This document shows, in pieces, positions 3 through 60,367 of a stretch of DNA of 64,000 nt. This stretch comes from Methanomicrobia archaeon JdFR-19 (GTDB lineage: Archaea > Halobacteriota > Methanosarcinia > DSM-18856 > Methermicoccaceae). Numbering within the stretch: the first letter of the stretch is position 1; each line of letters starts with the position of its first letter. A program made the position numbers and the translations under genes. Below the pieces are notes generated by a model, which worked only from the letters and a program-made list of their open reading frames with translations, made no database searches and was not told the origin of the DNA. The stretch is taken from assembly GCA_002010075.1 (NCBI GenBank), contig MTMG01000013.1, positions 1-64,000 on the forward strand, in the 5' to 3' direction.

Positions 3-110
3 GGCCCAATCCCCATTGTCTTCGGCTCAAACTACAAATGGGCCGTTTTTGCAATGATACTTACCCTCATTCTAATGTCGGTGGCTTTCATATGGATGTA
101 CTCATACTGA
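3..110 (+). CDS. C-terminal end of a DUF131/TIGR00304-like membrane protein (5' truncated by window)
   Basis: Reading frame 3 is open from the window edge to a TGA at 108-110. It encodes about 35 residues that begin GPIPIVFGS and continue into one hydrophobic helix ending in Tyr. The GPIPIVFGS stretch followed by a terminal helix resembles small archaeal DUF131 membrane proteins; I recognise it only from this fragment. It overlaps the start of the next gene by 19 bases, which suggests cotranscription. The function of this family is unknown. Confidence 0.5.
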   Translation, partial: GPIPIVFGSNYKWAVFAMILTLILMSVAFIWMYSY

Positions 111-1150
111 ACTGGAGGGGTCCAGATGACCCACTTGCAGGTGGCTCAGAGACGTATTTGATGGAGGTTGCAAAGAGACTCTCCTCAAAATACAGAATAA
201 CGCTGGTCTGCAGAAGACCGAAAGGACTTCCAAAGGAGGAAGTTGTGGATGGTGTGCGAGTTGTGAGGGTAGGGGGGCAGTATACAGTATATTTGAGAGC
301 TGCTCTTGAGTATATGAAAAGAGGTGCGGATTTTGTGATAGACAACATAAATGGCATCCCCTTCTTCACCCCTCTCTATGTCAGGAAGCCAAAGCTCGCT
401 ATAATCCACCATCTTGCAAGAGAGATATTCTTTCTGGAGCTACCCTATCCACTTGCAGTGGTGGGGTGGCTGGCAGAGAACTCGATACCCTTCATATACA
501 GAAAAGTGAAGTTCGGAGTCGTGAGTTAGAGTACATATTCAGAAGTTGTGAAGTTCGGAATACCAAAAGAGAATGTGAGCATACTTGGTGAGGGAATAAA
601 TCCGCCGAGGTTGAGAGGCTTTCCAAAAGAGAAAGAACCCACCCTCATCTATGTCGGGAGACTCAAAAAATACAAGAGGGTGGAGATGCTTATTGAAGCA
701 TCTACCATACTGAAAAACGAGTTCCCTGGGTTGAAGGTGTGGATAGTTGGAAGCGGAGATATGGAGCCTGAACTAAAGAAAAACTCCAAAGAATGGATTC
801 ATTTTTTTGGATTCGTAGATGAAAAAAAGAAATGGGAGCTTCTTGAGAGGGCATGGATATTCGTGATGCCTTCTGTAAAGGAGGGATTCGGTTTGACAGT
901 TGCAGAGGCTGAGGCGTGTGGTCTTCCTGCGGTAGGCTTCAACGTTCCAGGAATCAGAGATTCGATTTAGGACAGATACTCGGGGTTGCTGATTGATGAG
1001 GAAACACCTCAAGCACTTGCTCGAGGGATAAAATGGCTTCTTGAGGATGATAGATGGACACACTTTGGAAAGAATGCAAAAGAATGGGCAAAAAAATTCA
1101 GTTGGGATGAGGTTGCAAACAGACTGGACAAACTAATACAGGGTGGTTGA
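92..1150 (+). CDS. GT4-family glycosyltransferase with two in-frame TAG codons
   Basis: Retaining GT-B glycosyltransferase, probably transferring a sugar from an activated donor during cell-surface glycan assembly. The N-terminal Rossmann half opens with LILNWRGPDDPLAGGSET. The C-terminal half has the donor-binding YVGRLKKYKR region and an E-x7-E motif (E264 and E272). The frame is interrupted by TAG at 527-529 (codon 146, in the V-S-x-S-T segment) and 968-970 (codon 293, in DSI-x-DRYSGLL). Family sequence continues in the same frame after both, and the gene ends at TGA. The full length of 352 residues is normal for GT4. ATG 92 is preferred over ATG 38 because it starts exactly at the conserved N-terminus. 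If TAG were a stop, three useless fragments would result. The acceptor is unknown. Confidence 0.9.
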
Positions 1151-1930
1151 ATGGATAAAAATGAAATCAGCGAAGTAAAGTTCATAGGAGTTCCCACAAG
1201 GATAATTAAACCCGGAGATGACATCTTTGAGTGTTTTATCGAGGCGATTGAGAACAATGGAATTGAGATACAAGATGGGGATATAATCGTGGTCTCGGAG
1301 TGTGCGGTTGCGAGTGCAGAAGGCAGGATAATCAGATTATGTGAAGTATCACCCAGCACCAAGGCAGTAGAACTTGGGAAGAAGTATTCGATAGAACCAG
1401 AACTCATGGAGCTAATAATCAAAAGCTCTGATGCAATAGTGGGGGGCATCCCTGGGTTCGTACTTACACTCAAAGATGGATTTCTCTGTCCAAACGCAGG
1501 AATCGACTCATCAAATGTGCCAGAGGGTTGTGTGGCTCTCATGCCAGAGAACCCAGAAAGAAGTGCGAAAGAGTTGAGGATGAAGATTGAGGAAAAGACT
1601 GGTAAGAAAGTGGGGGTTGTAATCGCAGATTCAAGAACCCACCCTCTAAGACTCGGATGTGTTGGTATCGCTCTCGCATGCTCTGGTTTTAGGGGAGTGA
1701 AGGATATGAGAGGAAAACTTGATCTGTTTGGCAAACCACTCAAAATAACGAGAAGTGCTGTTGCAGATAACATCGTTTCAGGAGCTCAGCTCGTGATGGG
1801 AGAAAGCGATGAGGGAGTACCTTTTGTGATTGTTCGCGGGGTTGATGTGGAGCTCGACAGTTCTGATGAACCAATCCCAACCATCCCTCCAGAAGAATGT
1901 CTTTATTTTGGTTTGATTAGAAGCTTATAA
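1151..1930 (+). CDS. cofE: Coenzyme F420-0:L-glutamate ligase CofE
   Basis: GTP-dependent ligase that adds L-glutamates to F420-0 to make F420-2, the hydride carrier of methanogen C1 metabolism; cytosolic. The 259 residues match the family from end to end: an N-terminal GVPTRIIKPGDDI segment, DGDIIVVSE, then PNAGIDSSN and ADSRTHPLRLG in the catalytic core, and an ALACSGFRG region. The ATG directly follows the TGA of the glycosyltransferase, so the two are probably cotranscribed. The TAA stop lies within the 3' end of the convergent PUA gene. No unusual features. Confidence 0.95.
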   Translation: MDKNEISEVKFIGVPTRIIKPGDDIFECFIEAIENNGIEIQDGDIIVVSECAVASAEGRIIRLCEVSPSTKAVELGKKYSIEPELMELIIKSSDAIVGGIPGFVLTLKDGFLCPNAGIDSSNVPEGCVALMPENPERSAKELRMKIEEKTGKKVGVVIADSRTHPLRLGCVGIALACSGFRGVKDMRGKLDLFGKPLKITRSAVADNIVSGAQLVMGESDEGVPFVIVRGVDVELDSSDEPIPTIPPEECLYFGLIRSL

Positions 1931-2453: not shown

Positions 2454-2720
<267 letters not shown>

Positions 2721-10865: not shown

Positions 10866-10933
10866 GTTTTTCTATTTGCATCATCTGTAGATATGGAATA
10901 TGAAATTCGATACATTTTTTTACAATAGACGTG

Positions 10934-11548
10934 ATGTGTGATGCTGTGAGCAACGGAAAAAATACAAAGAGTGAGAGAACATAGAAAGACTTGGAAGTTT
11001 TGGCTGAACTTGCCATAAGCTTTGGATCATCGAAGGCGATACCAATCGACGCTTCTTAGGTTGTCGTTGATGAAAGGGTGAGACTCAAATGTCTTGTTCC
11101 AAGATGTGAGAACTATGGTGTTAATTTGATGTGTCCCCCATTCACACCCCCTCCCCAGGAGTTTAGAACAATACTTTCCAGATATTCATATGCGTTGTTG
11201 GTTGCAGTTGAGCATATTGACCCACCTCACCCCTCCAAAAATTCGAAAGAGGAAGTTGTGAATGAGCTTGCAAAATCTTCGAGAGTTCTTTCAGACATCA
11301 TGCTCATGCTGGAGAGAGAGGCACTTAGAATGGGATACAGGTTTGCAGCAGGACTTACTGGGGGCGAGTGCATGTTCTGCGATAGTTGTGTTGGACTTGG
11401 TGGAAGGTGCAAACACCCATTCAAAGCCCGCCCCTCAATGGAAGCAATGGGAATAGATGTGGTTGCCACATTGAAGAATGCGGGTGTCGAACTCAATTTT
11501 CCAGTTGAGGATAGACTCACATGGTGGGGCCTTCTCCTCTTTGATTGA
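10934..11548 (+). CDS. DUF2284 metal-binding protein with in-frame TAG
   Basis: Cys-rich protein, probably binding an Fe-S cluster or metal. Conserved DUF2284 segments are RLKCLVPRCENYG, MCPPFTPPP and ECMFCDSCVG followed by RCKHP. Upstream of GTG 11078 the same frame continues through TAG at 11057-11059 into family-like N-terminal sequence (DLEVLAELAISFGSSKA, then VVVDERVRLKC). The true gene therefore starts well upstream. I place it at ATG 10934, which includes a second TAG at 10982-10984. Starts between the two TAGs, such as TTG 10991, are possible. Total length would be 204 residues. TGA stop, overlapping cbiO tail-to-tail. Function unknown. Confidence 0.8.
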
Positions 11549-21914: not shown

Positions 21915-21976
21915 ATTTCAGCCTAAACACTCATGATTTAAGTATTTTTATTGGCTCGATTTATCGGTTCGAACAA

Positions 21977-22078
21977 CGCCGGGGTTGGGATTCGAACCCA
22001 AGCGCTCTCGAAGAGAGCAACGGGTCTCACGCTTGGATGTCTCGAGCCCGCCGCATTAGTCCGCTCTGCCACCCCGGC
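21977..22078 (-). tRNA. tRNA-Ser(CGA) with a 15-nt intron
   Basis: Acceptor arms GCCGGGG and CCCCGGC pair fully, followed by discriminator G73. A TTGGG-TTCGAAT-CCCAA T-arm and a long GCTCTC-TTC-GAGAGC variable arm identify a type II serine tRNA. The anticodon loop is CTCGAG-A, giving CGA, but 15 extra bases (22026-22040) lie between positions 37 and 38, the usual site of archaeal introns. Removing them restores the GCGGG/CCCGT anticodon stem. CCA is not encoded. Confidence 0.92.
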
Positions 22079-22130
22079 ATATAGGATAGTGGGAAGATAT
22101 TATATAGATTTGTCGAGCTTATTTTTAAAG

Positions 22131-23306
22131 ATGCTCAAAGTTGCAATTGCTGGGAAACCCAACTGCGGAAAGTCCACGTTTTTTAAAGCTGCAACACTTG
22201 CTGATGCCGAGATAGCTCCATATCCATTTACAACGATAAAACCGAATGTTGGAATAGCTCATGTGCGTGTGAAATGTCCTTGTGCAGAGATGGGAACAGA
22301 GTGTAGAAAATGTGTTGATGGGTATCGGTTCATACCGTTTGAGCTGATAGATGTCGCTGGGTTGGTTCCAGATGCACATAAGGGGAAGGGATTAGGGAAT
22401 GAATTTCTGGATGACCTCAGACAGGCTGAGGCGTTTATACATGTAGTGGATGCAAGTGGCTCAACCGATGCAGAAGGCAACCCAGTTCCACACGGTTCTC
22501 ACGACCCATTAGGGGATGTGAAGTTTCTCGAGAGGGAAATCAACTACTGGCTTTTTGGCATCATAAAAAGGGGATGGGAAAAAATAGTTAGAAGGGCAAG
22601 GGCTGAGCACATCCCCATCACCCGCCTACTTGCAGAACAGTTGAGCGGTGCAGGGGTGGATGAGAAAGATGTGAAGGCAGCCTTGTCAGAGCTGGATTTG
22701 TCTTATGAATCCGGGACAGAGGAACACACAGAGGAGCTTTTGAGGCTGTGTGATGTGCTGAGGAAGTTGTCAAAGCCGATGCTGATAGCTGCGAATAAGA
22801 TGGACATTGCACCTTAGCAGAATATACAGAGGTTGCTGGATTTACCATATATCACGGTGCCAACAAGCTCAGAAGCTGAACTCGTTTTGAGGATGGCAAA
22901 CAAGGCAGGAATAATACGCTACATTCCCGGAGACCATGACTTTGAGATTGTGGGGGAGCCAACAGATCCACAAAAAAAAGCTCTTGAAAAGATTAGAGCC
23001 ATACTGGAACATTACGGTTCAACTGGTGTTCAGGAGTGTTTAAACAAAGTGGTTTTTGATTTGTTGGAGTACGTGGTTGTCTATCCTGTTGAGGATGAAA
23101 ACAAATTGACGAATGTAGACGGCGAGGTACTGCCAGATGCTTTCCTCATGCCCAATGGCTCGACCGCTCATGATTTGGCGTACATGGTTCACACCGAACT
23201 TGGGGAAGGTTTCCTCTATGCAGTAGATGCAAGAACGAAGAGAAGGGTGGGAGAGGATTACGAACTCAAGAATGGAGACATCATAAAGGTAGTAAGTACC
23301 CGTTAA
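22131..23306 (+). CDS. OBG/DRG-family GTPase with TGS domain, in-frame TAG
   Basis: 391-residue YchF/DRG-related archaeal GTPase, probably ribosome-associated. G1 is GKPNCGKST, G3 is DVAGLV and G4 is ANKMD. The C-terminal TGS domain has MPNGSTAHDLAYMVHTELG. TAG at 22815-22817 (codon 229) directly follows NKMDIAP, and sequence continues in frame with QNIQRLL and the rest of the G domain. If TAG stopped translation, G5 and TGS would be lost. ATG 22131 is chosen; the open frame upstream runs through the tRNA gene. TAA stop. Confidence 0.9.
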
Positions 23307-28141: not shown

Positions 28142-29113
28142 TCAGGTAAAGAGACTCGTACCGTATCCTTTATGGTCGAGTCTGAGTACCCATTTCCACT
28201 TTTCTAAACACTCACACCCAGATCGGAATGTGTCGGTGAGATGTCGGATATCCTGAGTTTCAGAGAAGCTCTTGATGGCAGACGCCACCATCTTATCACA
28301 CTCCCCACAGTTGTGAGGTCCCCTCTTCCTCCCATATCCGACAGGGTCAGACATCAGAACAAGCTCTGGATACTTTCCTTTGCAGTATTTCAATATGTAT
28401 AAAGCACTCCACAGCCATGGAGGTCTGTATTCTCTTTTTCTCCACAGTGCCTCCACAAGAGTGCCCCGCTGAACATTACACAGGTTTATCGATATTCTTG
28501 TCTGGATATCCAGCCCCATAATATCATCTATCGATTTTATGACGTCTCTGATTGCCTCACTCTCCGAGAGAAAAGGTGGCTTCAGTAGGAGATATGTCTT
28601 TATACCTACCCCGAGTTTGTGTGCGATATCCACCACTCTCAAATAATCCTCGAATTTCATACCCTTCCCTATACACTCTTCTCTGAGTTTGTCATTTGTT
28701 GTCTCTAATCCAACAGCCACATCCAGAGGAACCAAATCCCTTGCACACATCAAAATACGCTCGTTTATGAATTCACATCTGCTCTCCACTATTACTCTCC
28801 TGACCCCTTTTTCACCTAACCTCCTCAGAATCTCCTCCCCTGCCTCTTTTGGGATCTCGGACTAATCAAAAAAACTGCCTGATGTGAAAATCTTTACAAT
28901 CATCCCCTCTTCAATCCTATCAAAATCAATTTGAGAAACAATCTCATCAGGTTCAAGCGGCCTCCTCACACAGTCCCTTATGAAGCCGCACATGAGACAG
29001 CCCTTGCCCTCTCTGGCTCGATAACATCCGATCGTTTTAAGTATTATTGTGATTGCATCTCTTGGTCTGCCATCGATGAACTCCTTCTCCTCGAAAATCG
29101 ATATTGGCTTCAT
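28142..29113 (-). CDS. Archaeosine synthase radical SAM subunit (RaSEA) with in-frame TAG
   Basis: 323-residue radical SAM enzyme of the TIGR01210 type, which works with ArcS to make archaeosine (G+15) in tRNA. The N-terminus RPRDAITIILKTIGC and the cluster motif C-x8-C-x2-C (GCYRAREGKGCLMCGF) are typical. TAG at 28862-28864 (codon 84) follows TSGSFFD. The frame continues SEIPKEAGEEILRRL and VIVESRCEFI, the expected radical SAM core. Ends TGA. ATG 29113 is preferred over the upstream TTG. Without read-through there would be two fragments, each lacking half the barrel. Confidence 0.88.
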
Positions 29114-29138
29114 GTTTCTCAATTCTCATTCAGATTTT

Positions 29139-29798
29139 TCATTCAGATTTCAATCCTAATATTTTCAATCCTTCCCGTAAAGTTCTCACAGGATACTGTC
29201 CCGGTGCTGTACCCTTCCCGAGGGAACCGTACGTAAGGACAGACCCATAAAGGGGTGCGATTATCCGGGTGGGTGCTCCAATCTCTCCCATTGACATAGC
29301 ACAAACACTTCCCATGTGGGAGGCTCTGCAAACCGCGTGAATGGTTATGAGTGTATCTTCTTTGTTATGTGGCATCACTGCTATCTTACCGACATCCCCC
29401 TTCTCAAGCTCTTTTTTGAATATGTTCATCATTTCATCCAAGGTTGGCGTCTCAACGAAATTGTGATAGGATACTATCGTACGGGTACCGATTTCACGAG
29501 CCTTCTCAACAACCTCGTCAATCCAAGTGGATGATAGCTCAACATCAATCATGTCCACCTTGTCAAGTATGTCCATCATAATCTTCTTTCTGTCTACCTC
29601 TCCTCCCTTAAATTCCCCACCCTCCTCTTTCTTTCTGCACGTAATTATGATGGGGAGACCCACCTCTTCAGCCTAAGCTACTGCATCTCCCCATCTCTCG
29701 CCCAGCAGGTCTATTCTCAATTCGATGAGGTCTGCGTATTCCAGCTCCTCAGAACAGAGTTCAGAGATATCTGCAACAGATCCCACAATCTGAACCAT
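29139..29798 (-). CDS. aroD: 3-Dehydroquinate dehydratase type I with in-frame TAG
   Basis: Shikimate-pathway enzyme forming 3-dehydroshikimate through a Schiff base. The barrel starts MVQIVGSVADI and has the catalytic ELRIDLL Glu, ITCRKKEEGG, the general-base His in SYHNF, and the Schiff-base Lys in KIAVMP. The C-terminus has GAPTRIIAPLYGS. TAG at 29673-29675 (codon 42) lies between GDAVA and AEEVGLPIIITCR, a variable loop. Start ATG 29798 follows GAGGAGGT. 219 residues, TGA stop. Confidence 0.92.
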
Positions 29799-29808
29799 TT
29801 TTACCTCC

Positions 29809-32512: not shown

Positions 32513-33702
32513 GCGGTATGACACAGTTCATACATACAGCAGATGTGCATCTCGGATATGTACAGTATGGACTCCATCAGCGATTCATCGATTTTGGTAG
32601 GGCATTTTCTCAAGTGGTATCCTATGCCATCGAGAACGATGTGGATTTTGTTCTGATATCTGGGGATCTGTTCCATAAGCGAAACATCAATGCTCTCACA
32701 TATCTTCAGGCATATGAGCTTCTTTCAAGATTGAAGGGCATTCCTGTGTTCGTCATAGAGGGCAATCATGACCTTGCATACTTCAAGGACAGACACAGTT
32801 GGCTCGAAGCTCTTGACCGGCAGGGGTTGATTACTTTACTGAAAACCCATGAGGGGACCCTCTCAAAGAAAGTTATTGATGTTGGTTAGAAAGTAGCTGT
32901 GTGTGGTGTTGGGTATGCTGGCTCTCAGACCCCACTGTACATACCAGAAATAAAGAAAGAGCTGGAAGAGGAGGATGCAGACTGCACAATCCTCATGATG
33001 CACTGTGGAGTAGGACCTTATTCGTATGGGGTAGGGGATGGTATCTCTCTCGACGAGATAATGGAGTTGAAAGGGGTAGTTGATTATCTTGCACTCGGAC
33101 ACTATCACACGAAGTTTGAGTTGGATGGATGGATATACAACCCCGGCAGTCTTGAAACAGTATCGTTATCTGAAAAGGGACCAAAAGGATTCTACCATTT
33201 CTGTGATGGGGAGGCGAAGTTTGTCGAGATTTCCGTCAGAAAGATTGAGAGGATTGTGGTCGATGTTGGTGATGCGAATTCTCCAGATGAATTGTATCAG
33301 ATAGTAGGCAAGGTCTGTGATGGCGTTGATGGGAATGATGCAATAGTATCTCTCACCCTCACTGGAGACCTGAGGTTCTCCATAAACTCCCTATCGCTCA
33401 AGAGGGTGAAGGAGATTGTGAAGGAGAGACTGAGTCCGATTTATGTGGATGTCTCCCTTAAAAGACATCTTGCCCCCACCCCTGTTTACAGAGCAAAAAG
33501 CGGAATAAAGAATGTTGAAAGGGATGTAATTGAAGCGATTGTAAGGTCTGATGCCCGATATTCAGTATGGTCAAAATTACTCAGTGAGTTGCTGATCGAT
33601 GTGAAGGGAACAGCAGCAAAAGGAGACACCGATAGAGCATATGAAATGCTTGAAAAGACTTTTCGGATGATGGAGGAGCAGCATGCTGATTCGAGAGATT
33701 GA
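32509..33702 (+). CDS. mre11: Mre11 nuclease with in-frame TAG
   Basis: DNA double-strand-break repair nuclease, partner of Rad50. The phosphoesterase motifs are all present: HTADVHLG, SGDLFHKRN, EGNHDL, MMHCGVG and LALGHYHTKF. TAG at 32887-32889 (codon 127) falls between KVIDVG and KVAVCGVGYAG. Without reading it, the two C-terminal metal-binding motifs would be lost. Full length is 397 residues. ATG 32509 overlaps the lipoprotein stop; ATG 32518 is the alternative. Overlaps rad50 by 20 bases. TGA stop. Confidence 0.93.
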
Positions 33703-36394
33703 GCTCAAGAATGTGAAATCATACAAGAGAGAGAAGATAGAGTTCCTTGAGGGTGTCAATGGAATAATTGGTGAGAACGGAGCTGGAAAGAGCACAATAC
33801 TCGAAGCGATAGGATATGTTCTGTTTGACCACATCCCTTACAAAAAGGATGAATTCTTGAGGAAGGGAGAGAAGACGGGGGAGGTTGTAGTCTGGGTTGA
33901 GAGTGACGATGGAATATATGAAATAAGGAGGGGACTCGGGAAAAATACAAAATACTCTGCTAGGTCAAGAAACTTCAAGATTGAGGGGAAGAAGGATGTA
34001 CTTGACCTGATAAAGGATAGGATTTTCAAAGGTGTGTTGGAGAGCGAGAGACTTTCACCATTTTTTGAACAGCTTGTTGGTGTCCCTCAAGGCACATTCA
34101 ACTCTCTGTTCATGATGGGGAGTGAAAAGAGGAAGATATTCAATGAGATTCTAAGGATAGATGAGTACGACAAGGCTTTTGATAATCTGAGGGATGTCAG
34201 GAGAAGAATCGAGGTTGAGATTGGTGAGCTGGAAGGTAAGATGAAAGAACTGAAGATAAGGCTTGAAAAGTATCCCGAGATTCTGGACAGAATTGAGAGA
34301 TTGAAGTACGAGCTTGCAGAATACTCAAGTGCAAGGGACGAAGTCAGAAAGATGCTGGGTGATGTGGAGACCGAACTTGAGAGTATGGAAGAGTACGCAG
34401 ACGAGCTTGCAGAACTCAGAGATACTGTAAAGTCGCTGGAGGGACAGAGGGATGCAATAAACGCAAGACTTGAAGAGGTGGAAAAAAGACTTCACGAGAG
34501 CAAAAATGCGTATGATGAGGTTATCAAAATTCAGAATGAGTATGAGGAATATCTCAGATTGAAAGATGAACTTGAGAAACTTGAGGCTGAGGAGGAAAAA
34601 AGAAGAAAGGCTGAAATGGAGTATGTAGAGTGTCTGAACAGAATAAAACACCTCACCTCAAAGATTGACATGCGGGATTCTCTCAGAGAAGAGTGTCTGA
34701 ATCTTGAAAAGGACATAGAGGGGATTAAAGAGGACGTTGAAAGAGAAAAACAACTTCTTGAGTTGCTGTCTGCTGTTGAGGATAGGCTGAAGAGGGTTGA
34801 AGATGCTGGGAGAAGATTGGAGGAGGCACGGAGGAAGCTGGAAGAGAGGGAGAGGATATAGGAAAGGATGGCAGACATCACAAAGAAAATCGAAGAGCTG
34901 AAGCCTCTTGCTGAAAAGGAGACGCAACTGAAAGAGAAAATGGCATATCTCGAAGGGTTGCTAAACGACCTTCGCAAGAGCGTCGATGAGTTGAGGAAGA
35001 AATAGAAGGAGGAAAGGGGAAATAAGTGTCCGATACTTGAAAGGAACTGCCCACTCGTGAATGATTTTAGAGAGTACTTTTGCAGTGAGATTGACAGGAA
35101 GCTGGAAGATATGAGAAAAACTCAACACGAAATTGAACTCATCAGCGATGCGTTATCCGAACTCAACTCTCCAAGTGCAGAACTTGAAAGACTCAGAGGT
35201 GCGTATGATGAAGCTCTTTCACAGCTCGGGGATGGGGCGGACATCGAAGCATCGATAAATGAAAGTGAGAACATCATCAGGGAAGAGGGTGAAAGTATAA
35301 GAGGAGTTCTTTCAGAGTTCGGTCTTGAAACAGACGTGCATAGTGCTGTGAAGACAATCAAACAGGAGATTGAGAGACTTGGAAATCCCGGAAAAAGAGA
35401 GAGTGAGCTTAAAGGTCAGCTCACGGCAAAGAGAAATATACTCTCAGAGCTTGAAGGTTTGGAGAATGAGTTGGAAGCAGAGTAGGAGAAATGTGAGGAT
35501 ATCATCGCATTTTTGGAATCTCTTTCTGAAGTGCCAGCAAGAATAAACACACTCAAAGATTTGATGAACGAATTGGATGAGAGTTATAGGCGGTATCTGA
35601 GCCTACTGCCAACTGCAAAGAGATATGAGCAAGACCTTGACGAACATCTAAAACTATCACTTGAGATATCAGAGATTGAAGGCATGATAGATGCTGAATG
35701 GCAGAAATACGAGGAAATATTAAGTCGTTATCAGGATGAGGAGCATTATGAACTCATAAAGACAAAGAAAGAACTCGATGAGATTCTAAGAACTCTCGAT
35801 GAGCACATCAGGGCAATAGAACGTGGGATGGAGAAAGTGATGTCTGAGAAAGAAGAGCTTGAAGATGTGATTGATAGGGCTTCTGAGGTAGAGCGGAGTT
35901 TAAACTCGAGGAAAAGGTTTCTTGAGTTTGTCTCTTTTGTGAGAGAGACATTGAAGAGGGCTTCATCGATGGTGGTCGAGAGAGTTGTGAGAGAGGTTAG
36001 TCAGGAGGCAAACGAGATATTCTGTGAAACGCTTGGCACATACTCACAGAGACTCATATGGTCATCAGAGCCAGAGAGCATATACGATGTGTTTGTGGAG
36101 GAGGGCGGAGAACTCAGGAGTTTCAAACAGCTAAGCGGGGGAGAACAGATAACAGCATCTATTTCACTCAGACTTGCATTACTGAAATTGCTTGCAGATA
36201 CAGATTTCGTCTTTCTTGATGAGCCAACTGTCAATCTGGACAGTATGAGGAGAGAGAACCTTTCCACTCAGATCATGAACGTCAAAGGATTCAGACAGAT
36301 ATTTGTGATCACCCATGACGATTCGTTCAGCGATAAGTATGATAACGTGATATACATAGAGAAGTCAGACGGTGTAAGCAGAGTCGTCAGATGA
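33683..36394 (+). CDS. rad50: Rad50 ATPase with three in-frame TAG codons
   Basis: SMC-like ATPase of 903 residues. Walker A is GENGAGKST (residues about 32-40). The C-terminal lobe has signature LSGGEQITAS, Walker B FVFLDEPT and switch ITHDD. Between them lies a long charged coiled coil. TAGs at 34859-34861, 35003-35005 and 35483-35485 are codons 393, 441 and 601. The zinc-hook region sits at the exact centre but is CPILERNC (C449 and C456) instead of the usual CPxC. Reading TAG as sense restores both ATPase halves in one chain. TGA stop. Confidence 0.94.
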
Positions 36395-36886
36395 GCCCAA
36401 CAGTTTCAAGATTTCTATATCCTCTTCAAGCTCGCATATCATTCTCTATTTGAGAAGCTTCGTCAGGTAATGCAGGGATGTGGGGTTTCTGTTCCCCAGT
36501 CCTTTGCACTCAAAGACCCTTAGTGTGATTCTGTCCCCTTCAAAATCGAGCATGAACGGATATGTTCTGCACACGATTGGTCTGTTTTGATATATTTTAC
36601 ATCTCCCTCCATCAAAGAATATGCATTTGCTGTCTTTTCTTCTCAAAATCCAGCCAAGATTAACACCAGAAATAGTTTGAGGATTTGGCTCTATGATGTC
36701 ATGCACATCCACATCCATAACCTCTGAGAGTCTCTTCGCTTCTGGGTAAAATATCCTTACAAAATTCTCCTCCCCTACACAACACTCCCCACATCCCACA
36801 CACTTCCAGTCGGGAATGTCTATTGAGGCAACATCAATCTGCTTCACAGTTTGAAGCATTCTCTCAAGCAGTTTCAAATTCTCCAT
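36365..36886 (-). CDS. YkgJ-like Fe-S/zinc-cluster protein extended through TAG
   Basis: 173 residues. The cysteine-rich YkgJ (UPF0153) core reads CVGCGECC, then CIFFDGGRCKIYQNRPIVCR and a late Cys. Homologues bind a metal or cluster, and the role is unknown. The first stop in frame is TAG at 36446-36448 (codon 147). Reading through it gives RMICELEEDIEILKLLGS and a TGA at 36365-36367, inside the rad50 3' end. This charged helical tail looks like genuine protein. ATG 36886 is chosen, inside the end of the ZPR1 gene. Confidence 0.75.
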
Positions 36887-37916: not shown

Positions 37917-38393
37917 ATGCTGAATATGAAGTTTGTGATACTCATCGTAGTGGTGGGGCTATTGTCTCTTGGGTGTGTATCTCCTCAGCAAACCTCCGAA
38001 CAGCCGAATATGACAGAACAACTCCAGAACATGACACCCGAGAGTGAGGAACAGATTGTCTCCCCATCCCAACCTCAAGAAACTCAACCTCAAGAAACTC
38101 TTCAGCCAGAACAACCCCCAATCCAACAGCCTAAAAACATTACTGTGTGGCTCGTTGATTACAGCATCACACCAAAGAATGTTAGCATAGGTGTCGGTGG
38201 AACAGTGAGTTTTGTGCATTACCAGTCATCTGGCAATCCTGTATTTGTTTTGGTGAGCGATGAGGGGCTGTGGCAACCACAGAGAATGGACTACGGTGAT
38301 ATTTTCTCATACACCTTCACGCAAAAGGGTGTTTATCATTTCCATGTGGAAGGATTCGAAAAAATCATGAGCGGGACGATTGTAGTCACATGA
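37917..38393 (+). CDS. Secreted cupredoxin-like lipoprotein
   Basis: 158 residues. Signal peptide with lipobox LLSLGC, then a Gln/Pro-rich linker with a tandem PQETQPQET, then a plastocyanin-like fold (SITPKNVSIGVGGTVSF to YHFHVEGFEKIMSGTIVV). The copper Cys expected in Y-x-C-x2-H is replaced by His (YHFHVEG), while the later Met is kept, so a standard blue-copper site is unlikely. The TGA overlaps the trm1 ATG. ATG 37926 is an alternative start. Confidence 0.8.
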   Translation: MLNMKFVILIVVVGLLSLGCVSPQQTSEQPNMTEQLQNMTPESEEQIVSPSQPQETQPQETLQPEQPPIQQPKNITVWLVDYSITPKNVSIGVGGTVSFVHYQSSGNPVFVLVSDEGLWQPQRMDYGDIFSYTFTQKGVYHFHVEGFEKIMSGTIVVT

Positions 38394-39526
38394 GGACAAT
38401 CAGAATAACAGAGGGCAGTACAACTGTTGAAGTGCCTGTGCAGGATTAGACATCTTCATATCCTCCTTCCTCAGCTCCTGTTTTCTACAACCCTTTTCAG
38501 GAGATGAGCAGGGATTTGACAGTTTGCGTGGTCTCCCTACTTCAAGAGGCCAAGAACGTCAGTTATCTTGATACACTTGCAGCAACCGGCATAAGAGGAC
38601 TCAGAGTTGCAAACGAGAGCGGGGCAGAGGTTGTACTGAATGACTGGGACAAAGAAGCATATGGGCTGTGTGTGAGAAATGCTCAGTTGTGTGGCAAGAG
38701 AGTGGAAGTTCTGAATTAGGATGCAAATCTTTTGATGAGGGCAAGAAAGTTTGACATCGTCGATATAGACCCGTTTGGCTCACCAGCACCGTTTCTTGAC
38801 TCGGGTGCCTTTTGTGCGAGAAAGGGACTGTTCCTGACAGCAACGGACAGAGCTACGTTATCGGGTGTGCATAGGAAAACCGCCTTCAGAAAATATCATG
38901 CACTTCCTCTAAAAACCGAGTATCATGCAGAAGTTGGACTTAGGATACTGTTGTATGCGGTTGCATGCTCTCTTGCCAGATATGGGAAGGCTATGATACC
39001 TTTGCTGTCTTACTCCAGTATCCATTATTATCGCATATTTGTGTTGGTCAGGAAGGGGGTGGAGAATGCGGACAAGATGTTGGAAGATGTGGGACACATT
39101 TTACACTGTCTCAAGTGTGGGTACAGGGAGGTGAAGAAGGGCGTGTGTTCGCAAAAGAGGGAGTGTGAGAAGTGTGGTGAAAAACTTGTGTATTGTGGAC
39201 CTATTTGGATTGGTAACTACAAAGATTCTGAATTTTGTGGTAGGGTTGCCGAAAAACTCAGAGGAGGGAAGTTCAATTCCACCCCCACAGCTTTGAAACT
39301 TTTGAGCAGACTATCTTCTGAACTTGACATTCCAACATGTTATGACTGCCATCTAATCGCCCGAAGACTCTCGTTATCCCCTCCAACCATGGAAAAACTT
39401 CTTGATGCTCTCACAAAAGAAGGATATAAAGCATCGAAGACACATTATGGTGGAACGCTCTTCAAGACAGATGCCCCCCTTGATGTGATTGAGGATGTTC
39501 TGATAAAATTACAAAATAAAAAATAA
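38390..39526 (+). CDS. trm1: tRNA (guanine26-N2)-dimethyltransferase Trm1 with two in-frame TAGs
   Basis: Methylates G26 of tRNA with SAM. Motifs: PVFYNPFQEMSRDL near residue 30, the SAM-binding YLDTLAATGIRGLRVANE, and the catalytic DIDPFGSPAPFLDSG. The C-terminal Zn ribbon has CLKCGYREVKKGVC and CEKCGEKL. TAG at 38447-38449 (codon 20) and 38717-38719 (codon 110, just before DANLLM) are read as sense. Full length is 378 residues, typical for archaeal Trm1. Without the first TAG the conserved N-terminus would be untranslated. TAA stop. Confidence 0.92.
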
Positions 39527-43484: not shown

Positions 43485-44117
43485 ATGCTCATAGGTGTTT
43501 TGGCTGTTCAGGGAGATGTTTCCGAGCATGTTGATGCGTTGAAGAGAGCGTGTGATAGAGTTGAGGTTGTGTTGGTTAGAAAAAGAGGAATAATCCCAGA
43601 ATGTGATGGAATAGTCATACCCGGTGGGGAAAGTACCACATTCTGCAGACTTCTTGAAAAAGAGGGTATATGGGATGAGATTGTGGAGGCTGTGAAGAGG
43701 GGCGTGCCAGTACTTGCAACATGTGCTGGTTTGATTTTGCTCTCAAAGGAAGTCATAGATTCAGCCCAAGGTCAGAGAACTCTTGGTGTGCTGAATGTGA
43801 AGGTGAGAAGGAACGCATTTGGAAGACAGAGAGAATCCTTTGAAGCGATGGTGGATGTGAAGGACATAGGAGAATACAGGGGTGTGTTTATCAGGGCACC
43901 AGTCGTGGAAGAAGTTGAGAACGGGGTTGATGTGATAAGTAAGTTGGGTGATAAAATCGTGGGAGTGAGACAGAACAACATCATTGGATTCGCATTTCAT
44001 CCTGAACTGACAGACGATATAAGAATTCACCGCCTTTTCCTCGATTTGGTCAAGGCGGTTGAGGGGAGAATGATGGGGTCGTTCTCTCCACAAACTTCAA
44101 ACTCACCCAGCTCATAA
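43485..44117 (+). CDS. pdxT: Pyridoxal 5'-phosphate synthase glutaminase PdxT
   Basis: Class I glutaminase delivering ammonia to PdxS. Triad: Cys in ATCAGLILL, His and Glu in FAFHPELT; the oxyanion region is PGGESTTF. 210 residues with a slightly long Ser-rich tail. The tail region overlaps, on the opposite strand, the TAG-extended 3' end of the DUF429 gene by 91 bases. TAA stop. Confidence 0.95.
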   Translation: MLIGVLAVQGDVSEHVDALKRACDRVEVVLVRKRGIIPECDGIVIPGGESTTFCRLLEKEGIWDEIVEAVKRGVPVLATCAGLILLSKEVIDSAQGQRTLGVLNVKVRRNAFGRQRESFEAMVDVKDIGEYRGVFIRAPVVEEVENGVDVISKLGDKIVGVRQNNIIGFAFHPELTDDIRIHRLFLDLVKAVEGRMMGSFSPQTSNSPSS

Positions 44118-44548
44118 CACTAAGCGGTTAATGCACAAATCAGAGCATCGAACTCGTCTTTGTTTTTGGGGGTACTTGATATTTTAATGTCCTGGATATC
44201 CAGAACTCTGGAGGATGCATGTGGATACACCTCGATGACCTCTGAGAAATATGTGATGCGTTTTGCAAGTCTCATCCCCCTTTCAGCAAGCTCCTTCATA
44301 CCCTTGAATGTGAGAGGGAGAATCCTGTATCCTCTCTTTCTGATCTCGATATCGCCGTCTCTGAACGTCTCACCATGGTAGGAGAGGGGGGCATCGATAC
44401 CAACACATTTTGGCATAACATCCTAAATAATATCGAGTATCTCATTATCAGTATGCACGCTTCTGAATTCAGGTTTCCCATTCCGAAGTATGCACACACC
44501 ACTTCTCTTCTTCTCACTTCCAGCAAGGTCTATCCCGACCAGAATCAC
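44027..44548 (-). CDS. DUF429 RNase H-like protein with two in-frame TAGs
   Basis: 173 residues. The segment starting ATG 44416 has the core KCVGIDAPLSYHGE and CGLT-like FDALICALTA. Upstream the same frame runs through TAG 44423-44425 (codon 42) to the N-terminal strand ILVGIDLAGSEKKRSG, the first RNase H-like motif. Downstream TAG 44120-44122 (codon 143) is followed by ELGEFEVCGENDPIILP, the usual DUF429 C-terminal hairpin, then TGA. I take GTG 44548 as start, with GTGATT upstream. Probable nuclease fold; function unknown. Confidence 0.85.
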
Positions 44549-44616
44549 ATGAATCACATAGCAAAATCACACAATTTTAGAATAAGTTTTTAATTGTCTC
44601 ATGCGAATTCGATATC

Positions 44617-49621: not shown

Positions 49622-49695
49622 GGGCTGGTAGCTCAGCCAGGCAGAGCGATTGGCTCTTAACCAATTGGTCGGGGGTTCAAATCCCTCCCAGCCCG
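49622..49695 (+). tRNA. tRNA-Lys(CUU)
   Basis: GGGCTGG and CCAGCCC pair as the acceptor stem, with discriminator G. The anticodon stem ATTGG/CCAAT encloses CTCTTAA, giving CUU. T-arm CGGGG-GTTCAAA-TCCCT is normal and no intron is seen. Ends five bases before the phosphatase ATG. CCA not encoded. Confidence 0.95.
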
Positions 49696-49700
49696 CTTGG

Positions 49701-50492
49701 ATGAACAGAAACGAACAATTTCTTCTGCTCAAAGAATGTTCAGACATCCTCCAAACCGAGCCAAACCTTTTGAAACTCAGAAAGAAGAGTGCCGTGGTAG
49801 TGGGGGATGTGCATGGTAGTAAGAACGCAGTGTTAAAGGCATTTGAAATTTCTGAGAGCTTTGAGAGTGTAATATTCTTGGGGGATTATGTCGATAGAGG
49901 ACCACATCAGATTGAGACAATCAACTTGGTATTGTCTGCAAAGCTCGATAGACCCAAAAACATAATCCTCCTGAGGGGAAATCATGAACTGCCTTACATG
50001 AATTAGATGTATGGGTTCAGATACGTTGTGGAAGCGACCTATGACCATGAGATGTGGATACACTTCAACGAATGCTTTTCATATATGCCATACGCCTGTA
50101 TTTTGTGCAATGTCATGTTTGTGCATGGTGGCATATCCGAGGGGATAAAGCGAATTGAAGACATAAACAAACATCCAAAAGGGATGGTACCATCTCCAGA
50201 AATGGAGGAACTTCTCTGGAACGATCCAGCGGATGGAATAAGTGGTTTTGTCTTCAACGAAGAGAGAATGGGCTTCAAGAAGTTTGGTAGGGATGTGCTG
50301 ATGGATTTCTTGGAGGGGAACTCACTTATGAGGGTGGTGAGAGCACATCAACCAGTGAGAAATGGATTTTGTGAAATGTGGGATGGCAAACTCATCACTG
50401 TATTTTCAAGTCCAGAGACCCATCCGGAAGGAAAGGGAACATTGCTCTTGTTCGAGAATGGCGAGATAGAACCCACGAATCTGTCAGTCTAA
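49701..50492 (+). CDS. PPP-family Ser/Thr phosphatase with in-frame TAG
   Basis: 263 residues. The metal and catalytic motifs are GDVHGSKN, LGDYVDRGPH, LRGNHE, then later FVHGGIS and RAHQPVRNGF. TAG at 50004-50006 (codon 102) falls in RGNHELPYMN-x-MYGF, the point where related phosphatases continue with YGF. The two halves in separate frames would lack one metal-ligand group each. ATG 49701 is chosen, just after tRNA-Lys; the longer frame would run into the tRNA. TAA stop. Confidence 0.93.
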
Positions 50493-52241: not shown

Positions 52242-53047
52242 CCATAGGAACCTAGCACCTTCACTTCATCTGCCTTCTCTCTCAAAGCTTTCAGGGCATC
52301 AGCCACCACCTCGTCTTTCACATGCCCTTCGAGGTCTATGAAGAAGAAGTACTCCCCCATTTCTCTCTTCTTTGATCTGGACTCGATTCTTGTCAGATTG
52401 ATTCCTCTCCTTGCAAACTCCCCCAGTATCTCATAGAGTGCTCCAGGTCTATCCTTTTTCAGATAAACAGCCAACAGAGTTTTATCCCTTCCTGTTTTCT
52501 CTCCTACCTCTCTCGACAGGAGAACGAATCTCGTATAGTTCTCTTTCCTGTCCTGCACATCGGCTTTGAGAATGTGAAGGGAGTATTCTCGTGCCGCCTC
52601 CTCAGAGGCGATTGCAGCATACGTTGGATTCTTCGAAGCAAGTTCTGCGGCGTTGGAGGTGGATGTGGTGTTCAGCACCTTTATACCATACTCTTTTGTG
52701 AGTGACATTACGAACGAGCGACACTGGGCGAGTGCCTGTGGATGGGAAACCACTACCTCAATCTCCTCGATTTTTGAAGCTCTTGAAAGAAGATGATGCC
52801 TTATCTCAAGCACAACCTCCCCACATATCATGACATCGTGTGATAGTATGGCGTCCAACACCTCTCCAACCGAGCCTTGAAGCGAGTTCTCAATCGGCAC
52901 AACTCCCAGACTCCCCCCCTCTTCGACCTCTCTGACAACATCCTCTACACAATCAAAGAACATGATTTCTGCGCCCTCTACGAGCTTTCTTGCTGCGATA
53001 TGTGAAAACGAACCTTTTGGCCCAAGTGTTGCAACTTTGTGTTTCAT
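52235..53047 (-). CDS. pheA: Prephenate dehydratase
   Basis: Converts prephenate to phenylpyruvate for phenylalanine. 270 residues. The dehydratase domain has VATLGPKGSFSHIAA, GVVPIENSLQGSV and NYTRFVLLSR. The ACT domain has RPGALYEILGEFARRGINLT and the ESR segment, which binds Phe for feedback control. Its ATG overlaps the true TGA of the upstream diphthine-ammonia ligase (ATGA), which only exists if TAG is read through. TGA stop. Confidence 0.95.
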   Translation of the reverse strand: MKHKVATLGPKGSFSHIAARKLVEGAEIMFFDCVEDVVREVEEGGSLGVVPIENSLQGSVGEVLDAILSHDVMICGEVVLEIRHHLLSRASKIEEIEVVVSHPQALAQCRSFVMSLTKEYGIKVLNTTSTSNAAELASKNPTYAAIASEEAAREYSLHILKADVQDRKENYTRFVLLSREVGEKTGRDKTLLAVYLKKDRPGALYEILGEFARRGINLTRIESRSKKREMGEYFFFIDLEGHVKDEVVADALKALREKADEVKVLGSYGW

Positions 53048-53694
53048 ACAGTTTCACCATCTATCACATAATCACCAGAGTCTCCGTACCATCTAACATT
53101 TCCCTACACCACTCTTATTCTCTTCTTGAAATGTGGAGCATTCAACACAAATGTTTCGTACTCACCGCCCTCACCAAGCGGATGTATCCCATACTTCCTA
53201 CATACTTCAATGAGTTGGTATGCAGTTCTTTTATCAAGAACTTTTCCAAGCCACTCCTTTCCGAGTCCATCTGCTGCCACCCTGACCACCATCACATCCA
53301 TTTCATCAACCATTTCCAATAACGTCTTCTCAGGCTCACATCCCCACAGTGGAGAAATTGTCTCAAGCCCCACCTTTTCTGCAATACTTTCAATTCTTGA
53401 CTTCTGGTACACAGATGCGACAGCCCCCGTACACACACCATCAACTTTGAGGAGCGAAAGACTCTCTTCAAGTTCCATCAGTTCATCTTCTCCCGAATGG
53501 TGTAATATTATTGGGAGACCCCATGCACTACTTACGGTGGGCATCATATGAATGTTTGTGTAGTGGTACATATGGGATTCTTCAGAGGGAGGTATGATTG
53601 AGAGCAGGCAGACGATTTTATGTCCAGCTTTACTTGCGAGGTATGCTGCGTATGTGGAATCCTTCCCGCCAGATACGAGGGCTACGAGTCTCAA
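53044..53694 (-). CDS. dph6: Diphthine-ammonia ligase extended through a 3' TAG
   Basis: 216 residues, final step of diphthamide formation on aEF2. The ATP-pyrophosphatase start is LVSGGKDSTYAAYLA, with GEGGEYETFVLNAPHF near the end. The first in-frame stop is TAG 53104-53106 (codon 197), right after KKRIRVV. Continuing gives GNVRWYGDSGDYVID, the usual C-terminal strand of this family, then TGA 53044-53046, which overlaps the pheA ATG. The start is TTG 53694, overlapping the fdhD stop (TTGA). Confidence 0.88.
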
Positions 53695-54467
53695 ATCGAT
53701 ACCCTCTCAGGGTATGTGTAGATATACAGATTGGGTCTCCTAACAAAAGCAACAATCGTAATCCCAGCCTTCACACTAGCCTCGATTCCACTGGACAACG
53801 GTGCAGCCTTGGACACTATGATGGGTATGCCAACCCTCGCAACCTTCCTGACAATCCCCTCGGAGAGTCTGCACGTGGTTGCAACCACACATTCTGAGAG
53901 TTCGATTCCTTTCATGACACAGTACCCAACAGCCTTGTCCATTGCAGTGTGCCTCGACACATCCTCGCACATGAAAAGCACCTTTCCATCTGAATCAGCT
54001 ATAAGGGTTGAGTGTGTTCCTCCGGTCCTCCTCCATAGCCTTGCATTCTCTGTTATGTGTTCGATTAAAGAGAATATGACATCACTGGTGATTTTCACAT
54101 CTCCTCTGGTTTTATTATTTTCAGCTTGGGTCTCTGTCGTTCTTTCTGTGGTGATGACCCTTATTTTGTTGTTCTGTATTTCGAGGTTTAAAGAGGGGGG
54201 AGGGTTTGGAAGCAAACCCTCGCATACGAGATGTCCCACAGCCATCTCCTCGAGTTGTGTGGGCAGTGCTGTGAGCGAGGCAATCCTTTCCGAGTTCAAA
54301 AAGATGTGGTAGAGCTCATCAACGCATACATCCACCTCTTCTGTTGAGGTCTTCCCCCCCTCCTTAACCACACACATCTGTTGTTTGACCATTTCTTTTA
54401 GTCCTTCATCTAACTTTTCGTCTCTCCAGTAGGATTTCCACTTGCCCCTATACTCCCAGTGTTTCAT
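53691..54467 (-). CDS. fdhD: FdhD-like sulfurtransferase lacking the CxxC motif
   Basis: 258 residues. FdhD carries sulfur from a cysteine desulfurase to the Mo/W-bis-MGD cofactor. The conserved RTGGTHSTLIAD, EDVSRHTAMDKAVG and SKAAPLSSGIEASVKAGIT are clear. The CxxC loop of E. coli FdhD is not seen; single Cys residues occur in SECVVATTC. The ATG overlaps the fwdB TGA, so it is translated with the Mo/W subunit of formylmethanofuran dehydrogenase. No formate dehydrogenase is nearby. TGA stop. Confidence 0.85.
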   Translation of the reverse strand: MKHWEYRGKWKSYWRDEKLDEGLKEMVKQQMCVVKEGGKTSTEEVDVCVDELYHIFLNSERIASLTALPTQLEEMAVGHLVCEGLLPNPPPSLNLEIQNNKIRVITTERTTETQAENNKTRGDVKITSDVIFSLIEHITENARLWRRTGGTHSTLIADSDGKVLFMCEDVSRHTAMDKAVGYCVMKGIELSECVVATTCRLSEGIVRKVARVGIPIIVSKAAPLSSGIEASVKAGITIVAFVRRPNLYIYTYPERVSI

Positions 54468-55765
54468 TTCTTCTCCTTTATCCTCTCAAACAACTGTTTG
54501 AGTGTGTCCTCGTTGCTTGTTGTAAAGTCAAAGGGTGGCTTTGTGAATGCTCTGAAATGAACAGGCACATCGTCCAATCTATAGAAAGTTCCTTCACTCT
54601 CCATCGCATCTATCACACCCGGTAAAACAATATCAGATGCCATTGTGGTTGGGCATGGTGCAATGTCTATGCACACCATCGGAATCTCTGCCAAGTACCT
54701 CCCACAGTCTGCGGGCAGATGAGCGACAAGGTCAGCGGACAGAACAAGTGCCGCATCCACCTCTTTTTCCTTCAAAACATCGACTGTTGTAAACTCTCCC
54801 GGATTGTATCTCGGGTATCCTCTTGCGAAGTCAAGTCCAAACGGATACCCATAGAGATACGTGGCAATCTGATTAAAGCCAGCCACGTTGCAGTGCCCTC
54901 TCAGTGCGCCGATGGTGAATTTAGCATAGCGATTGAGTTCTTTTGTGAGTGCCATTGCCATCTCTGCATTTCTGTGCTTTCCGAACGATGAGGCAATTCC
55001 AAGACCCACATATATTGACCCGAAATTACAGTTCTTCATTATCTCTACGACTTCCTTCATCATTTCTATTGGTATGCCCGTGATATCCTCGACGGATCTG
55101 TGAGGTTCCTTACCCCTCAATATTGTCATAAGGGCACAGAACAGCTCATAATCTGTGTTTGGTTTTATCTGCAAATGGATATCTGAGGCGATTGCGGTCG
55201 GAGTTCTCCTCGGATCAACTGTTATTATTGTCCGGTCAAATCTTCCTCTTCTTGTCCAGTATCCCCTTGGGAACACAGCATACCTTGCCATGTGTTTTGG
55301 CATCGATTCCATTGGATTTGAGCCCCAGTATATCGTAACATCGGAACGTATCTTCTTCTGACCAGAGGTTGCACCAACAAGCCCAGCTTCCTGAATCCCC
55401 ATACATGTGGGTCCATGGCATATGGTGGCATTTGAATCCACCACTCCCCCAAGGTACTCGCCAATGTGGAGGCCAACCTCCATTGCCTCACAGGAGGTTT
55501 CACTTCCCATGAAAATAAACGGTCTTTTGGCATTTGCAAGTATTTCCGCAGCCTTGTCCAGAGCCTCGTCCCATTCCGCATCTCTGAACTTACCGTTCTC
55601 CTTTATCATTGGATTTTTTATTCTGTGAGTGCTGACAAGTTCGTGGAACTTGGCATTACCCATCTTGCAAGCGTTCTTCACTTCGATCTTCCCATCATCG
55701 TACTCTACAATGATATCATCACATGCAGCACCACAAACAGGACAGACGATGTTTTTGTAAAGCAT
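54464..55765 (-). CDS. fwdB: Formylmethanofuran dehydrogenase subunit B (Mo/W pterin subunit)
   Basis: Catalytic subunit reducing CO2 to formate with a bis-MGD metal centre. 433 residues. An N-terminal 4Fe-4S site is CPVCGAACDD to C33. The metal ligand is Cys121 in ATICHGPTC, so this is the Cys, not the Sec, form. Further segments: YWGSNPMESMPKHM, TVDPRRTPTA and DIVLPGVIDAMESEGT. Mo or W cannot be chosen from sequence. Order in operon: fmdE, F, A, C, D, B, then fdhD. TGA stop. Confidence 0.97.
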   Translation of the reverse strand: MLYKNIVCPVCGAACDDIIVEYDDGKIEVKNACKMGNAKFHELVSTHRIKNPMIKENGKFRDAEWDEALDKAAEILANAKRPFIFMGSETSCEAMEVGLHIGEYLGGVVDSNATICHGPTCMGIQEAGLVGATSGQKKIRSDVTIYWGSNPMESMPKHMARYAVFPRGYWTRRGRFDRTIITVDPRRTPTAIASDIHLQIKPNTDYELFCALMTILRGKEPHRSVEDITGIPIEMMKEVVEIMKNCNFGSIYVGLGIASSFGKHRNAEMAMALTKELNRYAKFTIGALRGHCNVAGFNQIATYLYGYPFGLDFARGYPRYNPGEFTTVDVLKEKEVDAALVLSADLVAHLPADCGRYLAEIPMVCIDIAPCPTTMASDIVLPGVIDAMESEGTFYRLDDVPVHFRAFTKPPFDFTTSNEDTLKQLFERIKEKK

Positions 55766-58729: not shown

Positions 58730-58745
58730 CTTTAGCCCTCCTGAA

Positions 58746-59804
58746 TCAAACTCTAACTTTTATTTCTGGTTTTTCCTTCTCCTCGTGCATTACTTCCTCT
58801 CTCCTCTCAAGCCATATTGCATTGACAGGGCATATCATAGAACAAGTACCGCAAGAACCACACAGTTCCTGGTCCACAACCGCAATCACACCATTCTGTA
58901 CATCGAGAAGTGGTTTTCTTTCTGTATCGTTGAGGTGCCCTGCTGCCAAGAATGGGTCAGACGATGCATTCACAGGACAGACAACAACACAGCTGTTGCA
59001 CCCAAGACACACATCTTCGTTGGTCTTCAAAATAGATGTTCTGGATGGTTCAGGCGCCGGAACATCAAGAATCCTCTTCTCCAGAGGTGCTTTCTTATCC
59101 ATATCAACCAGTATTTTTGTCTTCTTGACTTCAATAGCCTTTACAGGGCATGCAACCGCACAAGCACCGCAGTATATACAAACCTCTACCCTATGTCTGA
59201 TTTTCTCAACGACCTCTCCCGGACCCCAGTCTGGGTTAAAGAGTGCATTGCAAGGACACACATCCACACAAGTTCTGCAAGCCTGACAGAGGCTCTCGTT
59301 CCAGCTCCACTCCCCCTCAAACGGCTTGTCCACCTCGATTGCATCCACAGGACAGACTGATGCACACCATCCACAGTGTATGCAGAATTCCTGCTCTATC
59401 TTCACATTCCCATCAACACTTGCACTCCCATCGTTTGCAAACCATCTCTCAACCTCGATGCATCCCTGTGGACACACAGCCTCGCACAATCCACACAGCA
59501 CACACTTATCACTCACACTCGTGGTTTTCAGAGAACCACTTACAGTGTCAACCTTCTTCTCATCTTCTGTTTTCCAGACTAATGCCCCTGTTGGACATAC
59601 TCTTGCACACATACCACACGTTATACACTCTTCTGTGAATTCAACGAAATCTTTGTCGATTTCGCCCCTTGCAACCGCACCAACCGAGCCAATCACTATT
59701 GCATCCTTTGGACATGCCAAGACGCAAGTCCCACAGCCTATACATTTCTCAGGGACATAGAAAAGAGCTCTTTCATCCTTTTGACTAACTTTGACCTCCA
59801 TCAT
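58746..59804 (-). CDS. fwdF: Polyferredoxin subunit of formylmethanofuran dehydrogenase
   Basis: 352 residues with eight 4Fe-4S motifs: CIGCGTCVLACP, CITCGMCARVCP, CVLCGLCEAVCP, CIHCGWCASVCP, CQACRTCVDVCP, CIYCGACAVACP, CLGCNSCVVVCP and CGSCGTCSMICP. It forms the electron wire to subunit B. The start shares one base with the TGA of the fmdE-like gene. ATG 59801 is an equally good start. TGA stop. Confidence 0.95.
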   Translation of the reverse strand: MMEVKVSQKDERALFYVPEKCIGCGTCVLACPKDAIVIGSVGAVARGEIDKDFVEFTEECITCGMCARVCPTGALVWKTEDEKKVDTVSGSLKTTSVSDKCVLCGLCEAVCPQGCIEVERWFANDGSASVDGNVKIEQEFCIHCGWCASVCPVDAIEVDKPFEGEWSWNESLCQACRTCVDVCPCNALFNPDWGPGEVVEKIRHRVEVCIYCGACAVACPVKAIEVKKTKILVDMDKKAPLEKRILDVPAPEPSRTSILKTNEDVCLGCNSCVVVCPVNASSDPFLAAGHLNDTERKPLLDVQNGVIAVVDQELCGSCGTCSMICPVNAIWLERREEVMHEEKEKPEIKVRV

Positions 59805-60367
59805 CAGACATCACTCCTATTAACACAATCGATACAGAGATTTTCTTCACCTCTTTTTATGAAAGCCTCCCCACACCCTTCGCAAATCATCACAAACTTC
59901 TTCTCTTTGTGTGGTACTTGGACTCTGACAAGTTGGTAGGAGAGGACATCCTCTCCAGCAATCTTCAACTCCTCTATCACTTCTTCATGCGAAGGCTTGG
60001 CAGTGTTCATGTACCATGCGTGTAGTTTCGGGTATTTCCTCGTCTTTTCCGGGTCGAGTACTATCCTCACACCTTCCGCGTAAGTCCCGGGCGGGGAGTG
60101 TTTTGTAATAGTCACAGCCATCTTACCCGTGTCCCTTATTCTCAGTCCCTTATTGCCTATGGTGCATTTTGCAAAAATCTGAAAAGGGTCTGGCAAGCAG
60201 TTCGATGTCTCGCACAACACATGAATTCTCTCCTCTTCCCCCACGTTGAGGAGTCTTCTTCCAAGTTTCAGCATCATGAGTCCTATGAAGGCACCCGTGC
60301 TCAGATATCCATGAAAATCAACGATCTACCTGATTTCTTCTTGGGTTGGCTGTGATATTATTGTCAT
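59804..60367 (-). CDS. fmdE: FmdE-like zinc-ribbon protein with in-frame TAG, first gene of the fwd operon
   Basis: 187 residues. From ATG 60367 (MTIISQPTQEEIR) the frame meets TAG at 60326-60328 (codon 14), then continues IVDFHGYLSTGAFIGLMMLK, the expected FmdE N-terminal helix with its His. Conserved parts downstream: CETSNCLPDPFQIFAKCTIG, then the zinc ribbon CEGCGEAF and CIDC. If TAG were a stop the gene would start at the internal ATG 60277 and lose the conserved FHG motif. Role in the complex unproven. TGA overlaps fwdF. Confidence 0.88.

Follow-up and report, generated by a model that had tools for sequence, protein, structure and literature searches.

Probable genome-wide use of TAG as a pyrrolysine codon in Methanomicrobia archaeon JdFR-19

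The stretch of DNA considered here, called the window, is the first 64,000 nucleotides of contig C2 (C2:1-64000) in the metagenome-assembled genome (MAG) of Methanomicrobia archaeon JdFR-19, which originates from fluids of the Juan de Fuca Ridge flank (GC 43.2; PMC5369317). The genome comprises 1,288,683 bases in 27 contigs and, being a metagenome bin, is estimated by a completeness tool at 90%. Many genes of the window, among them several with housekeeping roles, carry the stop codon TAG within their reading frame, and the question addressed is whether TAG is read in this organism as pyrrolysine (Pyl). An earlier note, made from the letters of the window, had counted 18 in-frame TAGs in 13 genes, or 19 if the DUF2284 gene has an upstream start, and a script places all of them in frame. 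They are given below by position and strand, together with the codon at the same site in the congener (G295, apparently the Guaymas MAG B74_G9), the sole relative of the same family among the genomes drawn, wherever the two could be compared.

527..529, plus strand: residue 164 of the GT4 glycosyltransferase (38-1150), inside PF13439
968..970, plus strand: residue 311 of the same glycosyltransferase (38-1150), inside PF00534
10982, plus strand: second TAG of the DUF2284 protein, counted only with the upstream gene start
11057..11059, plus strand: residue 43 of the DUF2284 protein (10931-11548), inside PF10050
22815..22817, plus strand: residue 289 of the YGR210/DRG-like Obg GTPase (21951-23306), inside PF08438; Asp in 1wxq
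28862..28864, minus strand: residue 87 of the RaSEA-like radical SAM protein (28142-29122), inside PF04055; congener TAG
29673..29675, minus strand: residue 63 of aroD (29139-29861), inside PF01487; congener TAG; Leu/Lys in solved homologues
32887..32889, plus strand: residue 127 of mre11 (32509-33702), inside PF00149; congener TAG
34859..34861, plus strand: residue 393 of rad50 (33683-36394); congener TAG
35003..35005, plus strand: residue 441 of rad50 (33683-36394); congener TAG
35483..35485, plus strand: residue 601 of rad50 (33683-36394); congener TAT (Tyr)
36446..36448, minus strand: residue 180 of the YkgJ-like CxxCxxCC protein (36365-36985), outside the domain; congener TAG
38447..38449, plus strand: residue 20 of trm1 (38390-39526), inside PF02005; congener TAG
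38717..38719, plus strand: residue 110 of trm1 (38390-39526), inside PF02005; congener TAG; His/Met in solved homologues
44120..44122, minus strand: residue 146 of the DUF429 protein (44027-44557), outside the matched part; congener TAG
44423..44425, minus strand: residue 45 of the DUF429 protein (44027-44557), inside PF04250; congener AAG (Lys)
50004..50006, plus strand: residue 119 of the PPP-like phosphatase (49650-50492), right after its GNHE motif, inside PF00149; congener TAG
53104..53106, minus strand: residue 197 of dph6 (53044-53694), inside PF01902; congener TAG; Asp/Lys in solved homologues
60326..60328, minus strand: residue 43 of the FmdE-like protein (59804-60454), a weak case before PF02663 (residues 47-174)

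Translation of TAG as a residue gives a Pfam match for each of the 13 proteins, in keeping with the earlier claim that the same frame continues with protein that fits the family. Fifteen of the 18 TAGs lie inside the domain match, including the three of Rad50, which fall in its coiled coil. Those outside are the TAGs of the YkgJ-like (36448), DUF429 (44122) and FmdE-like (60328) genes, the last being the weakest of the set because it lies upstream of the domain and might precede a downstream start. In the YkgJ-like gene, the ratio of nonsynonymous to synonymous substitution rates (dN/dS) against the congener is 0.08 across the 26 codons downstream of TAG. The statement that TGA and TAA never occur inside these genes is likewise borne out, as the 13 genes hold 19 TAGs and zero TAA or TGA in frame; their two other frames hold 96 TAGs and 506 TAA or TGA codons. 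The reading frames were, however, picked for the absence of TAA and TGA, and therefore only the continuing homology counts as independent evidence. A purine follows TAG at 16 of the 19 sites, which has no significance against codon context (p = 0.14). TAGs at 4391, 7282, 26125, 31749 and 37899, all near the starts of open reading frames (ORFs), were excluded from the count as start-site or antisense artefacts, and the ORF at 53620-54501 with its three TAGs was rejected as an antisense artefact, given the stops in the congener and the high dN/dS.

The alignment with the congener spans 34.5 kb, with a DNA identity of about 93%, and covers 35 genes and 14 of the window TAG sites. TAG is retained at 12 of these sites and replaced by sense codons at the other two, TAT in Rad50 and AAG in the DUF429 gene. 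The earlier note had raised true stops in close relatives as evidence that could overturn its reading; the comparison was run, and zero stops stand at the 14 sites. The genes compared terminate in TGA or TAA only (0/35 in TAG, one gene being gapped), and dN/dS is 0.17 before the first TAG and 0.15 after it, over 1,883 downstream codons. From the conservation of TAG in the congener together with dN/dS it follows that pseudogenes are excluded and that read-through is the simplest account. Sequencing or assembly error could be suspected of any MAG, yet 12 of 14 TAGs are common to two independent MAGs from different sites, selection persists beyond the codon, and no TAA, TGA or frameshift accompanies it, so that the chance of the interruptions being either errors or marks of gene decay appears minute. 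Much the same holds for the notion that each half is a gene in its own right, the second starting afresh past TAG. Selection on both halves would be expected there too, but the TAGs split single folded domains (in Trm1, PurA, AroD, Mre11, Dph6 and others) and two of the congener sites are sense codons, and we give this notion next to no weight.

Genome-scale counts were made on sampled stretches totalling 557 kb (43% of the genome), read base by base. Under the standard code, 31 of 378 ORFs of at least 200 amino acids seem to end in TAG, and beyond these apparent ends the frame stays open for a median of 64 codons, as against 11-12 after TGA or TAA (31 ORFs, p = 1e-7). The PylS-negative genome G079 has no such difference after TAG (p = 0.46; 6 ORFs only). 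With TAG treated as open, 80 of 391 long ORFs (20%), some of them spurious, hold 105 TAGs past codon 30, and the internal density is 0.72 per 1000 codons; extrapolation to the whole genome suggests roughly 200-350 internal TAGs. Among 20 TAG-bearing genes tested elsewhere in the genome, 18 match Pfam, 13 with TAG inside the domain. Such genes include those of LeuRS and adenylosuccinate synthetase (PurA), and a second Rad50/SMC-like protein (C13:524-3193; 26% identical to the Rad50 of the window) has one TAG. The pattern of TAG exceeds chance, as seen in its conservation in the congener, the dN/dS of 0.15 after TAG and the long open stretch past apparent TAG ends.

A search for pylS, pylBCD and tRNA-Pyl in the full genome, proposed by the earlier note, found the complete set with curated cut-offs passed: tRNA-Pyl, PylSn, PylSc, PylB, PylC and PylD are all present. 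The gene order pylT-pylSn-pylSc occupies L001:1000-2226, equal to C6:52999-54225. PylSn is encoded separately (L001:1089-1364; TIGR03912, 94 bits against a cut-off of 51), and PylSc is a protein of 281 amino acids (C6:53500; L001:1381-2223; TIGR02367, 298 bits against a cut-off of 178) that retains the motifs LRPMLAPNLY, TMLN, VYGE and PW, as well as the Pyl-pocket residues Asn, Tyr and Trp. The tRNA-Pyl has the anticodon CUA, a length of 71 nt, a 6-bp anticodon stem, a 5-nt D-loop, a 3-nt variable loop, G73 and one base between the acceptor and D stems, a fold as expected of tRNA-Pyl. The genes pylB and pylC overlap at 6.2-8.4 kb of C6 and pylD lies on contig C18, all three above the NCBIfam cut-offs; since pylBC are about 46 kb off on the same contig and pylD is on another, the pyl genes are dispersed and form no single pylTSBCD operon. 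PylSc is 48% identical to the Desulfitobacterium PylSc and 36-42% identical to the Methanosarcinaceae enzymes, in a comparison made without the PylS of G020; identities alone are used here because a small PylS tree has a long branch.

The established clients of pyrrolysine are present as well. MtmB, MtbB and MttB each have one in-frame TAG, which in MtmB (YMAIOAPET) and MttB (VAGTOTDS) falls in the known Pyl motif and in MtbB, at residue 355, agrees with the known site. The mtmB and mtbB genes, both with TAG, cluster with corrinoid proteins on contig C9 (L085:9132-12807), and the cluster is bordered by transporters resembling amino-acid permeases and by a RACo-type activator. Two further paralogues of the MtmB family (L057:1495-2853 and L058:1498-2826) are without TAG and have a Ser/Thr-rich GPST or GPSS at the place of the MtmB Pyl motif.

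One could ask whether TAG instead specifies a standard amino acid such as Lys, Gln or Tyr, through another suppressor tRNA or a mischarged tRNA-Pyl. The congener does have Lys and Tyr at two sites, and Lys recurs among the residues of solved homologues that align with TAG. These residues, read by eye from alignments of six proteins, are Asp/Gly/Gly in PurA, Leu/Lys/Lys in AroD, Asp/Lys in Dph6, Asp in the GTPase, Lys or a gap at one Trm1 site and His/Met at the other, and a gap in LeuRS. Because they vary, TAG occupies tolerant sites in the six proteins, with no bias toward a single amino acid, and such a mixture (Asp, Gly, Lys, Leu, His, Met) fits poorly with one standard residue. A pattern search for a second CUA-anticodon tRNA found none, its hits being four ordinary tRNA genes and one non-tRNA place, in a pattern that tRNA-Pyl itself fails to fit; no tRNA-Pyl was found in viral contigs. 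As tRNA-Pyl is the sole CUA tRNA found, PylBCD is complete, and catalysis by MtmB, MtbB and MttB depends on Pyl, decoding as a standard amino acid seems very unlikely. The residue is most likely Pyl, given the TAG in all three methyltransferases, the Pyl motif in MtmB and MttB, and the lack of any other CUA tRNA.

A subtler alternative is that Pyl is inserted in the methyltransferases while TAG elsewhere is in part read through and in part terminated. One full archaeal release factor 1 (aRF1) was found (L095:1495-2736, contig C4); its YxCxxxF motif reads YHCASEF, against YHCDSAF in Halobacterium and YLCDNKF in human eRF1, Ala replacing Asp. For Pyl archaea, the accepted view is that Pyl-tRNA and aRF1 compete (PMC9723677, PMC9499178), the Sifarchaeia decoding Pyl and yet ending 21% of their genes in UAG. 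Several observations weigh against a complete reassignment: aRF1 retains its GTx and NIKS motifs, so that leftover termination at UAG is possible, and 7 of the 378 sampled ORFs of at least 200 amino acids stop at TAG with another stop fewer than 20 codons further on, and these could be genuine TAG stops backed up by a second one. In addition, a second suppressor tRNA with an unusual T-loop may have been missed, as the MAG is 90% complete and the base-by-base reading covered only 43% of it. On the other side, no TAG-ending gene occurs in the 34.5 kb aligned to the congener, purifying selection is equally strong before and after TAGs, and frequent termination would be costly across so many genes, the essential LeuRS and PurA among them. 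Taken together, such a division of TAG between sense and stop appears improbable.

It is therefore very probable, judging from the genome, that TAG serves as a genome-wide pyrrolysine sense codon in JdFR-19 and that TAA and TGA are its sole stops. The Pyl code put forward in the earlier note is supported by the presence of the Pyl set, the lack of stops at the 14 congener sites and the lack of TAG ends in the 35 genes compared. By their family membership, PylB, PylC and PylD would convert lysine to pyrrolysine, and the two-subunit PylSn and PylSc would, to go by sequence and fold, charge it onto tRNA-Pyl, whose CUA anticodon would read UAG. The methylamine methyltransferases would then use Pyl catalytically, as is established for these families, while in ordinary proteins it would sit at positions variable among homologues, in the main as tolerated substitutions (six proteins compared). 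At UAG, aRF1 may either lack recognition or be outcompeted. TAG occurs in LeuRS, adenylosuccinate synthetase, Trm1 and Dph6, among others, so that Pyl is probably indispensable to the cell.

McrA has no match in the 90%-complete JdFR-19 genome, the same search being positive in both methanogen controls, and PMC8351635 reports HemBCD to be missing. Together these absences may point to a methylotroph that has given up methane production, subject to the incompleteness of the MAG. A tentative and at present rather doubtful extension is that JdFR-19 belongs with its Guaymas relative to a deep lineage whose code, with 62 sense codons and 21 amino acids, is obligate, and that in this lineage methanogenesis was lost and aRF1, with Asp changed to Ala in the YxCxxxF motif, lost UAG recognition. 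Dependence of essential enzymes on the reassigned codon suggests that a stop-codon reassignment may become irreversible. The natural split-synthetase/tRNA pair may read UAG at a high level. Standard-code public gene calls for JdFR-19 would shorten dozens to hundreds of proteins and so affect metabolic reconstructions.

It would be useful to place these observations among known systems. In 2025 Kivenson et al. reportedly defined in Science an archaeal 'Pyl code' with proteomic proof for some lineages. That code shares with JdFR-19 a genome-wide TAG sense codon for Pyl and TAA and TGA as stops; it reportedly differs in its proteomic proof, the evidence for JdFR-19 being genomic. The kind of code is thus already known, reportedly since 2025, and the Pyl cassette of JdFR-19 was reported in 2022; new is the genome-wide evidence for this lineage, for which a limited literature search found no earlier report of the code-wide consequence. 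Methanosarcinaceae, of the same class, likewise have tRNA-Pyl, PylRS and TAG in MtmB, MtbB and MttB; their PylSn and PylSc are fused, whereas those of JdFR-19 are separate genes, with PylSc nearer to that of Desulfitobacterium. In sampled stretches of G139 and G012, two PylS-positive relatives, internal TAGs number 0.07-0.11 per 1000 codons, against 0.72 in JdFR-19. PMC9499178, referring to Guo et al. (2022), names JdFR-19 as a member of the archaeal class with split PylSn and PylSc, the same cassette as described here. The tRNAs of that class are, per PMC9499178, yet to be explored; the present work differs in describing one, with its 71 nt, 6-bp anticodon stem, 5-nt D-loop and G73. A contrast is offered by the Sifarchaeia (Ca. 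Borrarchaeum), also archaea with a complete Pyl system and inferred to be non-methanogenic, which end 21% of their genes in UAG and have in-frame UAG in MtbB only (PMC9723677); in JdFR-19, unlike in Sifarchaeia, TAG hardly ever ends a gene and occurs internally in dozens of them.

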